Both the position numbers and the translations under genes were made by a program. Source: Aestuariispira insulae (lineage in GTDB: Bacteria; Pseudomonadota; Alphaproteobacteria; UBA8366; Aestuariispiraceae). From it: a stretch of 64,000 bases of DNA. Where the stretch lies: positions 62,001-126,000 of the forward strand of contig NZ_QRDW01000012.1 of the NCBI RefSeq assembly GCF_003385955.1, read 5' to 3'. Of this stretch, positions 58,210 through 61,448 are shown one piece after another; position 1 is the stretch's first letter, and each line of letters begins with the position of its first letter. The notes under the pieces are model-generated. The model did no database searches, was not told the origin of the DNA, and saw nothing but the letters and a program-made list of their open reading frames with translations.

Positions 58210-58635
58210 TCAATCGTCCGGTTTATGCAGGATCTTGCCCATGGAGATCCTGGGCTCCACTTGATAGCCGTTCTTTTCATAAACCGCGACCACAGCTTCG
58301 TTGCCTTCGCGCACCTGAAGATTGATCTTCACACAGCCAAGCGACGCCAGCTTTGCCTCGGCCATCTCCAGCAGGCGCGACGCAATCCCCCGTCCGCGCT
58401 GGGCGGGATCGGTTGCGACCGAATAGATCCAGCCGCGATGACCGTCATACCCCGCCATCACAGTGCCCAGCATCTGCGCGCCCTGCATGGCAACGAACAT
58501 CAATTCCGGCTGAAAGGCCACCTTCAAATCCAGCGACAAGGCCGGGTCTTTCCAAGGGGGATCATCCGGAAAGACCCGTTTCATCAGCGCTATATAGGCT
58601 TCCCTGTCCTGCGGCTGATAAAGGCGGCATTCCAT
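58210..58635 (-). CDS. GNAT-family acetyltransferase
   Basis: A 141-residue N-acetyltransferase. Acetyl-CoA binding motif A is YSVATDPAQRGRGIASRLLE (R/Q-x-x-G-x-G/A present), and the C-terminal NLQVREGNEAVVAVYEKNGY is typical of RimI/YpeA-type proteins. The ATG at 58635 overlaps the 3' end of the prephenate dehydratase gene, so the two are co-translated; the longer frame to 58680 is inside that gene and unlikely. The substrate is unknown. Confidence 0.87.
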   Translation of the reverse strand: MECRLYQPQDREAYIALMKRVFPDDPPWKDPALSLDLKVAFQPELMFVAMQGAQMLGTVMAGYDGHRGWIYSVATDPAQRGRGIASRLLEMAEAKLASLGCVKINLQVREGNEAVVAVYEKNGYQVEPRISMGKILHKPDD

Positions 58636-58639
58636 GGGA

Positions 58640-59824
58640 TCAGTCCCGAGTCCGGAACGGGCTGATGGGATAGGTGCCAAGCACCTTTACCTTGGTGGTG
58701 AAATACTGCAGCTCCTCAAAAGCCTGATCAACCGAACGCTCCGCCGGATGGCCTTCGATTTCCGCATAGAAACGCGCTGAACTGTCGTCACCGACGGAAA
58801 TATAGCTCTCCAGCTTGATAAAATTGACCCCGTTGGTCGCAAAACCCCCCATGGATTTGTACAAGGCAGCCGGCACGGAACGCAGTGCGAAAACCAGGCT
58901 GGTGATGCAGCGCCCGGCCCGCGGATCCGGTTCAATCCTGGTACGCGACATGACAATGAAGCGGGTCACATTGCCGATTTTATCCTCGATACGCGCACGC
59001 AGGGTTTTCAAACCATAGGTTTCGCCCGCCAGGCTGGAGGCGACCGCCGCCACGGTCGGATCATTCAATTCCGCCACCAGCTTTGCCGCCCCTGCGGTAT
59101 CCGCCTCTTTCACCGGGGTAATACCCAATTCACGCAGCGTGCTGCGGCATTGCGCCAGAGCCTGGGTATGGCTTCGCGCCTCTTTCACCGTCTCAAAGCT
59201 CGCCCCCTGGGGCGCCAGCAGATGGTGATGCACCGGCTGAAAATGCTCCCCGACGATATAGAGATTTGATTCCGGCAGCAGATGATGAATATCCGCCACC
59301 CGGCCACCCAGCGAATTTTCGATCGGGATCATAGCGAGACCCGCACGCCCATCTTCCACGGCGGCAAAAGCATCTTCGAAACTGGGGCAGGAAAGCGGCT
59401 CCATATGGGGAAATGCTTCGCGGCAGGCCAAATGCGAATAGGCACCAGGCACCCCCTGATAGGCGATTACGGGATTGTCTTCTGCAGGATTGGTGATCAT
59501 CGCCGTTTCTCCGGAAGTGGCATATTGCTGCTGGATGGAAGGGGGATAGGTATCCCGCCTGTCACTGGAAAGAAGGAAAGAAGAGGCCGTCGCCCTGGAC
59601 CGCTGCATGGGTCCCGCAGGCTCAACCTGGCTGCCCAGCATGAGCCAGTCCAGGTTCACACCGGTGGCTTCCGCCAATCGCAGGCATGTTTCACGGTTGG
59701 GCTCGCGATGGCCCGCCTCCCACCGGTTGACGGTGGAATGCGATACATCGAGCTTTTCGGCCAATCCGGCCTGGGTCAACCCGGCGGCCCGGCGGGCCTG
59801 TATAATTCTTTGCGCTACAGTCAT
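58640..59824 (-). CDS. pheA: XRE HTH-prephenate dehydratase fusion
   Basis: One continuous 394-residue frame joins two functions. Residues 1-62 are an XRE/Cro-type helix-turn-helix (GLTQAGLAEKLDVSHSTVNR, then WEAG and LRLAEATGV). A polar linker (63-115) leads to prephenate dehydratase (117-295; IAYQGVPGAYSHLACREAFP and the catalytic TRF at 287-289) and an ACT regulatory domain (306-385; KLESY near 338-341 and FYAEIEGHP). The enzyme makes phenylpyruvate from prephenate, and the ACT domain normally binds Phe. No stop or frameshift separates the parts. An internal ATG at 59500 with GGAG 8 bases before it could yield the enzyme alone. Palindromes upstream suggest autoregulation. Confidence 0.9.
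   Translation of the reverse strand: MTVAQRIIQARRAAGLTQAGLAEKLDVSHSTVNRWEAGHREPNRETCLRLAEATGVNLDWLMLGSQVEPAGPMQRSRATASSFLLSSDRRDTYPPSIQQQYATSGETAMITNPAEDNPVIAYQGVPGAYSHLACREAFPHMEPLSCPSFEDAFAAVEDGRAGLAMIPIENSLGGRVADIHHLLPESNLYIVGEHFQPVHHHLLAPQGASFETVKEARSHTQALAQCRSTLRELGITPVKEADTAGAAKLVAELNDPTVAAVASSLAGETYGLKTLRARIEDKIGNVTRFIVMSRTRIEPDPRAGRCITSLVFALRSVPAALYKSMGGFATNGVNFIKLESYISVGDDSSARFYAEIEGHPAERSVDQAFEELQYFTTKVKVLGTYPISPFRTRD
59498..59513 (-). promoter_or_regulatory. Internal ribosome binding site and start in pheA
   Basis: GGAG (59509-59512 on the minus strand) lies 8 bases before ATG at 59500, the codon for Met109 of the fusion and 9 residues before the dehydratase fold. Translation from here would give a 286-residue prephenate dehydratase of ordinary length. 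Confidence 0.6.
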
Positions 59825-59862
59825 GATCCTGCTGTAGCGGGCCCGTCACCAACTGTCAACCC

Positions 59863-59917
59863 TTGTGCAATTTTTGCACAACCGGCAATCTCGTGTTCTT
59901 TAGTGCAAAATTTGCAC
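59863..59917. promoter_or_regulatory. Two GTGCAA-N3-TTGCAC palindromes before pheA
   Basis: TTGTGCAA-TTT-TTGCACAA at 59863-59881 (8-bp arms) and GTGCAA-AAT-TTGCAC at 59903-59917 (6-bp arms) have their centres 38 bases apart. They lie 39-93 bases upstream of the fusion start. Their symmetry and size fit a dimeric XRE protein, probably the fusion itself. Confidence 0.7.
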
Positions 59918-59921
59918 AGAA

Positions 59922-60689
59922 TTATTGATTTTTGCGTAAAAAGGCAATGGCATCATTCAGTTGTGCCATCCGCTCGTGATTGCCGATATCACTGTCGGGA
60001 TGATGAATGGTGGCCAACATCCGGAAACGCGCCTTGATTGTCTGCATATCCGGATAAGTGCCGGGCGCGATCCCCAACACATAGAGAGCCTCCTCCCGGG
60101 TGCGGATTCCATTGCTGAGAATTTCGGAAGAAAGCGCACTGATCACAGAGCGCAAGCGACCGATTTCCTCCGCCTGATCCGCCAGACGCTCCCTGGCGCT
60201 GGGTTTTGCGGCATCCTCCAGGGTAACCTTCAAGGCATCCCGGTCCAGTTTGAGCGCCAGCGCAAGTGCCTTGCGAATGGTCACAACTTCCAATCCGGCC
60301 GGCATGCGCACCTGCAGCCGCGGCTTGCGCCGCCAGGGCTTGCCCGCGCTGGGGCCGGATTTCAAAATCACCGTCTCGCGGTCATCGGCATCAGGCTCGC
60401 CGGGGTCTTCCATAGCCTGAACGGTGGATTCCGGCATGGTCAACATCACGGACCGGGCAATATCGCCCACATTCACCTTGCGGCTTTCCGCCAACAGCGT
60501 GACAGCATCCCGGAAGGCACTGGCACAGGGAATAGCATAGGAGACTTTACGCTGGGTCGGGCTTTTGGTCGCTTCCCGGATTGCATCAAGCAACCGGCCG
60601 TCCTCTGTCTTCTTCACTCGCGACACGGCTTCGGCCGCTGCAGCCCCTCTCATCGTTTTTCTCACCCCGGAAAAAATGATTGTTTCCAT
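59922..60689 (-). CDS. J-domain-containing protein of unknown function
   Basis: A 255-residue protein. The last 60 residues are a J-like domain (ALYVLGIAPGTYPDMQTIKA, then RMLATIHHPDSD with the HPD motif intact), which in DnaJ stimulates DnaK. The N-terminal part (1-175) has no domain I recognise; it is basic near 115-135 and has a helix with LADQAEEIGRLRSVISAL before the J-domain. Alphaproteobacterial proteins with a C-terminal J-domain and unknown N-terminus are common. It lies upstream of the pheA operators, same strand, and probably has its own promoter in the 60690-61103 gap. Confidence 0.75.
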   Translation of the reverse strand: METIIFSGVRKTMRGAAAAEAVSRVKKTEDGRLLDAIREATKSPTQRKVSYAIPCASAFRDAVTLLAESRKVNVGDIARSVMLTMPESTVQAMEDPGEPDADDRETVILKSGPSAGKPWRRKPRLQVRMPAGLEVVTIRKALALALKLDRDALKVTLEDAAKPSARERLADQAEEIGRLRSVISALSSEILSNGIRTREEALYVLGIAPGTYPDMQTIKARFRMLATIHHPDSDIGNHERMAQLNDAIAFLRKNQ

Positions 60690-61103
60690 CGCTACCGGCC
60701 TCTCCGGTAACTACATACGATATCAAAATTCCCTGATTCGTTAAAATGCACAAGCAAATACTGGGTTATTTATTATCCATTAATGATTGTATGGCATGAA
60801 TAGGTTTATACCTATGACAAAGGCGGGGTAATTCCATCTATACCCTGAAAAATAGATTTAAAGCTATTTTTTCACTTTTGCCGTTTCGCAAATTAGGAAA
60901 ATGCGATATAAAGGTATAGGGGAAAGTGCTGTTATACACTACACTTTTGGTAGTGTATTTGCATTGGACGGACCGGTTCACAACCCGGCCTCCGGGGCGC
61001 GCAGATCCGGCCTGATGGAAAGGCCGGTCGCAATTTCTAAAAAATCGACTGTATTCGTCTGGCGATGCTGCTTGCCAGACACATAGTTAGGAGACTAGGA
61101 ATT
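60690..61103. other. AT-rich intergenic region with palindromes
   Basis: A 414-base gap between the divergent J-domain and XRE genes. No coding frame is supported. ATAGGT-TTAT-ACCTAT lies at 60800-60815, and a perfect ATACACTAC/GTAGTGTAT inverted repeat with a 7-base spacer at 60934-60958. TATACACT within the latter is -10-like. The part before 60950 is clearly more AT-rich than the rest of the window, as expected for promoters. The longer palindrome is a likely operator of the XRE regulator. Confidence 0.6.
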
Positions 61104-61448
61104 ATGCCGCACCCGACAGACATCCATGTTGGACGCAAGGTTCGTGAAGCCAGGGCAGCGAAAGGAATGAGCCAGGAACAGCTCGGCAAGCTGCTGGGCG
61201 TCAGCTTCCAGCAGGTCCAGAAATATGAAAAAGGCACCAACCGCATCGGCAGCAGCCGCCTGTGGGATATTGCCCAGGCCCTGGAAACGCCGATCACCTA
61301 TTTCTTTGACGGCATCGAAGATGCTGGCGCGCTGGACCAGAAAGCCCTGCCCAGGCGGACCATCGAACTGGCCAAGCAGATCGATTCAATTCCCGATGAC
61401 AATGTCCGCAATCAGGTTTTGAACCTGATAAAAGCCTGCGCCACGTAA
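61104..61448 (+). CDS. XRE-family transcriptional regulator
   Basis: A 114-residue DNA-binding protein. The HTH spans about 10-65: VREARAAKGMSQEQLGKLLG, VSFQQVQKYEKGTNRIGSSR and LWDIAQALETPITYFFDG. The short C-terminal helix (RRTIELAKQIDSIPDDNVRN) is seen in a common alphaproteobacterial subfamily. ATG at 61104 has TAGGAGACTAGGA upstream; earlier frame to 61065 is unlikely. The palindrome at 60934-60958, 146 bases before the start, is a candidate site. Targets are unknown. Confidence 0.92.
   Translation: MPHPTDIHVGRKVREARAAKGMSQEQLGKLLGVSFQQVQKYEKGTNRIGSSRLWDIAQALETPITYFFDGIEDAGALDQKALPRRTIELAKQIDSIPDDNVRNQVLNLIKACAT

Follow-up and report, generated by a model that had tools for sequence, protein, structure and literature searches.

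In well-known bacteria, inhibition of the enzymes of phenylalanine (Phe) synthesis through an ACT domain is separate from control of the genes, which is exerted by attenuation or by TyrR. The monofunctional prephenate dehydratases (PDTs) of alphaproteobacteria (PRK11899; Brucella 6vh5 and GqqA, 7alz/7am0) resemble the protein analyzed here and aligned with its residues 118-393, with identities of 53% (6vh5) and 48-49% (GqqA) in structure matches. No HTH was matched in them; in our protein, the enzyme part follows an XRE domain and a linker. Chorismate mutase-PDT (PheA P-protein, PRK10622) is also a PDT-ACT enzyme with an N-terminal fusion partner, but this partner is an enzyme, and our protein scored 143.8 against the PRK10622 cut-off of 577, matching in the PDT part only. 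BzdR (PMC3602430) is a regulator that likewise consists of an XRE domain, a linker, and an enzyme fold of aromatic metabolism; its shikimate-kinase-like domain is inactive and the protein controls benzoate degradation genes. Unlike BzdR, the present protein is the sole PDT of the cell and its apparent target is its own gene; its C-terminal part is PDT-ACT, and no shikimate-kinase-like domain of the BzdR type was found there.

The DNA-binding folds of PutA and BirA differ from the XRE HTH. According to PMC6978683, each of them is a single protein acting both as a metabolic enzyme and as the repressor of a related operon. Here such a dual role is predicted, with another enzyme and another ligand, and the sequence evidence is consistent with an enzyme-repressor (trigger enzyme) of the PutA/BirA type. 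A first-pass annotation of the locus knew of no described HTH-PDT fusion; in agreement with this, no such fusion was reported among the open-licence PMC papers listed, screened by titles and abstract openings. As far as searched, the HTH-PDT domain combination is new; the enzyme-repressor principle is already known.

Architecture and conservation of the fusion protein

The window, i.e., the whole analyzed stretch of 64,000 nucleotides from Aestuariispira insulae, harbors at 58640-59824 (minus strand) a single unbroken ATG-to-TGA frame of 394 amino acids plus stop. The first-pass annotation had read it as an XRE HTH, a linker, and a PDT with ACT domain in one frame, which was confirmed by ORF reading, Pfam, NCBIfam, and AlphaFold2. 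The XRE (Cro/CI-type) HTH domain comprises residues 1-62 (59639-59824, minus strand): HTH_3 (PF01381) matched residues 7-61 with an E-value of 1.9e-17 and 63.5 bits against a gathering score of 23, and the sequence also matched the ICEBs1 Xre-family regulator 7t8i (E 2.1e-7). After a linker of residues 63-117 (59474-59638, minus strand), which is poorly conserved among the 14 family sequences, the PDT catalytic domain covers residues 120-295 (58940-59467, minus strand; PF00800, E 2.6e-56, 190.7 bits against 25.2). Its residues T287-R288-F289, which we take to be the catalytic TRF motif of PDT, were invariant in the 14 family sequences and in a 40-sequence alignment. The NCBIfam prephenate dehydratase equivalog PRK11899 reached 407 bits (cut-off 359) over residues 118-392, including the ACT region. 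No chorismate mutase domain was detected by Pfam at E 0.001.

The ACT region, approximately residues 306-388 (58661-58909, minus strand), gave no match to the Pfam ACT model PF01842 at E 0.001; it was recognized by alignment to the solved PDTs 6vh5 and GqqA and by its predicted fold. The nearest solved structure, 6vh5, was deposited as 'in complex with phenylalanine', and the ACT region aligned with this Phe-bound Brucella PDT end to end. The AlphaFold2 model, computed from a 40-row alignment, reached a mean pLDDT of 84.5 and a pTM of 0.67. The HTH was modeled as five confident helices with block means of 91-97, residues 68-111 of the linker were predicted to be disordered (pLDDT <50), and PDT-ACT was mostly above 90. 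Foldseek returned PDTs as the best solved matches, namely 6vh5 (53% identity) and GqqA (7am0).

The fusion is real. A frameshift or stop within the linker, which the first-pass annotation had named as evidence against it, was not found: the frame is open from end to end in all 14 family genomes. The same open frame in 14 genomes is due neither to chance nor to a sequencing error, and a frameshift or misassembly joining two genes is thereby ruled out. Furthermore, PF00800 has a single match in the A. insulae genome (4.82 Mb, 99.4% complete), the fusion itself; an HTH attached to a degenerate PDT was ruled out by this sole occurrence and by the conserved core.

The HTH was intact, with invariant core residues, in 14/14 family fusions. 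Nei-Gojobori dN/dS values for its codons in seven species pairs were 0, 0.024, 0.26, 0.038, 0.51, 0.20, and 0.15, those for the PDT part were 0.016-0.14, and dS was near or above 1 in several of these pairs. The most relaxed HTH was found in the pair L014/L015 (0.51). The HTH is constrained, though less than the enzyme part.

Distribution, neighborhood and origin

Full-length fusions were present in all 14 genomes of the family Aestuariispiraceae, A. insulae included, representing seven genera; the proteins of the 13 relatives were 64-78% identical to that of A. insulae. Pfam matched both HTH_3 and PDT in all 14 proteins. Each family genome had one PDT match, the remaining matches being XRE-only. 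Among the 14 are Curvivirga aplysinae (L050, the same as G005) and Hwanghaeella sp. (L051, the same as G008), both genera being assigned to Aestuariispiraceae in the NCBI taxonomy. Of 29 other genomes of the order, 23 contained a PDT match; none of these was fused and none started before residue 93.

A class-wide search gave matches at E <= 1e-90 in at least 265 of 385 genomes. Matches from the first two positions occurred in at least nine genomes of the class, five belonging to the own family and four designated G225, G106, G119, and G234. Pfam identified HTH_3 and PDT in G225 and G106 (family f68) and in G119 and G234 (family f81); distant fusion copies thus exist in two further alphaproteobacterial families. 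In the phylum (E <= 1e-75), 124 of 299 genomes matched, from position 1 in A. insulae only; two other early starts were at position 47, with a stop inside, and at position 58. The best 80 loci of a collection of named genomes, inspected for N-terminal extensions among the 30 longest, included at least three fusions: L050, L051, and L052 (the same as G225). All these counts refer to homologous fusions, as a PDT joined to an unrelated HTH would be missed by homology searches. The long frames of G188 and G054 and the partial N-terminal matches of L066 and L093 were discarded as further fusions after no XRE domain was seen by eye.

Directly upstream of the fusion gene, frame 59922-60689 (minus strand) resembles DnaJ weakly at its C-terminus (E 2e-4, below the Pfam cut-off). 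Of six family neighborhoods, four (L164, L166, L167, and L168) have a frame preceding the fusion whose end resembles that of this gene; in the other two, the contig ends (L165) or the stretch is hidden by a longer frame (L169). The frame upstream of the fusion in G225 and G106 presumably ends like KdsB. On the other side, a GNAT acetyltransferase (PRK03624) is encoded at 58213-58635 (minus strand); its ATG lies 4 nt past the fusion stop, and it is perhaps co-transcribed. No GNAT gene was found at this place among the neighborhoods of relatives listed (frames of at least 120 amino acids). A second, stand-alone XRE regulator of 127 amino acids is encoded at 61065-61445 (plus strand), at a distance of about 1.2 kb.

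A careful tree was computed from 49 chosen PDT domains, comprising 15 of the 18 fusions and 34 unfused proteins; for a set of 130 rows, a quick tree only was made. In the 49-row tree, the family fusions, f81, and G106 fall together on the same side of a branch (98/94), G225 groups with unfused f86 (87/86), and f81 forms a long branch. This tree requires a minimum of two state changes, so that the fusions may have arisen either twice or once with a later loss. An adjacent stand-alone XRE gene was rejected as the direct precursor: no XRE-like frame was revealed when the DNA upstream of 20 unfused PDTs of the same clade (1.4 kb at most, less at contig ends) was scanned with a short motif pattern.

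Two observations concern individual members of the tree. In L159 and L160 (family f81; small genomes of 1.8 and 1.3 Mb), the HTH-PDT fusion is fast-evolving, its linker is longer and devoid of Met, and its tree position is unsure. L060 and L061 are PDTs of the alphaproteobacterial type inside the fusion-bearing PDT clade, located on contigs that had been assigned to MAGs of Actinomycetes and Acidimicrobiales, which points to a binning error or to gene transfer.

Promoter repeats and two possible starts

The gap upstream of the fusion gene is 97 bp long and contains two perfect inverted repeats of the form GTGCA(W5)TGCAC. Both lie in the fragment 59863-59917, which the first-pass annotation had singled out as possible binding DNA. 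The first putative operator, TTGTGCAA-TTT-TTGCACAA (59863-59881), ends 3 bp upstream of a putative -35 box TTGACA (59854-59859, minus strand) beginning 35 nt before the ATG; the second, GTGCAAA-A-TTTGCAC, is located at 59903-59917. A putative -10 box TACAGC (59831-59836, minus strand) is found 6 nt before the ATG. TTGAC starts at -35 or -37 relative to the first ATG in nine of the 14 orthologues and is missing from these positions in the other five.

In the 4.82 Mb genome of A. insulae, GTGCAANNNTTGCAC occurred at two places, both in the fusion promoter, and its reversed control at none. The pattern GTGCAWWWWWTGCAC was counted in eight family genomes: two sites were found in G000, one in G001, and one in G005 (Curvivirga), each in the fusion-gene promoter, and none in G002, G003, G006, G009, and G010, with zero control sites in all eight; the patterns were derived from the same promoters in which they were counted, so that the informative part is their absence elsewhere and their recurrence in three genera. 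The G001 promoter contains a second, slightly different repeat. These three motif-bearing genera have the recognition helix SHST(V/L)NRW in common, and the other family fusions carry TQSTVNRW, TQST(I/V)ALW, or AQSTLARW.

A wider regulon was considered and rejected. With up to three mismatches allowed, the 19-bp motif was found at seven places in the A. insulae genome, against two for the reversed control; the promoter holds one site with 0 and one with 2 mismatches, and the remaining five places all have 3. As palindromes alone, the repeats were modest, with p-values of 0.02 (window), 0.065 (G001), and 0.24 (G005) in 200 dinucleotide shuffles each. No operator common to all was found in the other 11 family genomes, in which the best palindromes (p 0.01 to 0.87) differ by genus. 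The four distant fusions showed no shared operator either (best palindromes p 0.42 to 0.995). We infer that the fused HTH binds its own promoter directly, from a motif located there, conserved in three genera, and present nowhere else in those genomes. The fusion appears to target no gene but its own.

With the arrangement TTGACA-17-TACAGC-6-ATG, transcription would begin at the ATG itself, and we infer a leaderless message for the long form. A weak Shine-Dalgarno sequence at the first ATG, with an energy of -3.5 or weaker in 12/14 orthologues (exceptions: L012, -5.6, and L013, -7.3), fits such a message. Within the linker, an internal ATG at residue 109 is preceded at 8 nt by a Shine-Dalgarno-like GGAG (59509-59512, minus strand; -6.6 kcal/mol); initiation there would yield a plain PDT-ACT of 286 amino acids (58640-59500, minus strand), an ordinary PDT size.

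An in-frame ATG between HTH and PDT was found in 11 of the 14 orthologues, with best energies of -6.6, -9.3, -6.6, -4.0, -4.0, -5.4, -7.2, -6.5, -6.5, -10.3, and -8.1. Eight of these 11 reach -6 or stronger. The corresponding share was 6.8% among 662 control ATGs, situated in frame elsewhere in long frames, and 6% among 82 Mets inside the PDT parts; -4 was attained by 21.5% and 27%, respectively. Where a genome had several linker Mets (up to three), the strongest was scored, which favors this result, and relatedness is ignored. The linker ATGs of L005 and L007 reached -4.0 only, a level also attained by 21.5% of the control ATGs. No Met occurs in the linkers of L006, L008, and L013, the last of which is the one with a strong Shine-Dalgarno energy at its first ATG. 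The differing places of the junction ATG across genera indicate upkeep of a start and not of one residue. Two products may thus be made, the full-length protein and a plain PDT from the internal ATG; the internal start looks like a widely kept source of a second product beside the long form and not of a short form alone.

Proposed autoregulation and its alternatives

It is likely that the sole PDT of the cell, fused to an XRE domain, regulates its own gene through HTH binding to the repeats of its own promoter. The fusion would probably act as a repressor, with Phe modulating it via the ACT region. According to PMC8192741, the solved relative GqqA forms a dimer that holds Phe at its ACT interface; a Phe-governed change between open and closed states is also described there for PDTs. 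If the PDT-ACT part dimerizes like this relative, two HTH domains would be paired on flexible tethers and could bind the GTGCA(W5)TGCAC inverted repeats just upstream of their own -35 box. At plentiful Phe, the amino acid would occupy the ACT dimer interface, inhibit the enzyme, and change DNA binding, so that enzyme activity and enzyme synthesis would fall together. Phe sensing via the ACT region is plausible since this region aligns end to end with that of the Phe-bound Brucella PDT. One message would give both the full-length enzyme-regulator, from its leaderless first ATG, and the plain PDT, from the internal ATG led by a Shine-Dalgarno sequence.

A site upstream of a -35 box also suits activators, and both repeats of the window lie there; the fused HTH might thus activate its own promoter, or might answer to substrate or the state of the enzyme rather than to Phe. 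We give this version a minor chance. In Curvivirga, the repeat is closer to the start (-49 to -29 relative to the ATG), a position suiting repression, and end-product repression is the common logic of biosynthetic genes; we consider repression likelier than activation. Another XRE protein could also occupy the repeats while the fused HTH has a different role: the genome encodes further XRE proteins, two of which match the fused HTH at 33% identity, and the stand-alone regulator at 61065-61445 lies within the window. This appears quite improbable, since the motif is confined to the fusion gene and to genera whose fusions share one recognition helix, a pattern that a dedicated autoregulator would produce.

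An improbable reading takes the HTH for a passive tail, derived from an XRE gene captured upstream of PDT in an ancestor, with the short form as the working enzyme. The unconserved linker, the dN/dS of 0.51 in L014/L015, and the internal ATG that could supply plain PDT in 11/14 agree with it; it conflicts with the intact HTH and invariant core residues in 14/14, with HTH dN/dS values ranging from 0 up to 0.26 in the remaining six pairs, with conserved and genome-exclusive promoter repeats, and with the missing linker Met in 3/14. The same layout of XRE domain, linker, and enzyme fold in BzdR (PMC3602430) could suggest that the protein is solely a regulator and that its enzyme domain is dead. 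This is very improbable for the only PDT of the genome, found once per genome throughout the family, with TRF and core invariant and a dN/dS of 0.016-0.14.

Autoregulation by the fused protein could be extended to a one-gene end-product feedback loop, a tentative proposal. In this loop, a leaderless message would yield an HTH-PDT-ACT protein serving as enzyme, Phe sensor, and repressor together with plain enzyme; mixed oligomers would set HTH pairing; Phe would control enzyme activity and the sole operator-bearing gene; and recognition helix and operator would have changed together by genus.

Inhibition and gene control of Phe synthesis thus seem to be joined on one chain in these bacteria, the own promoter being the only evident target. 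This bears on how enzymes become regulators, since, unlike in BzdR, the enzyme appears to be still needed; related bacteria have kept the unfused enzyme, which makes a comparison possible.
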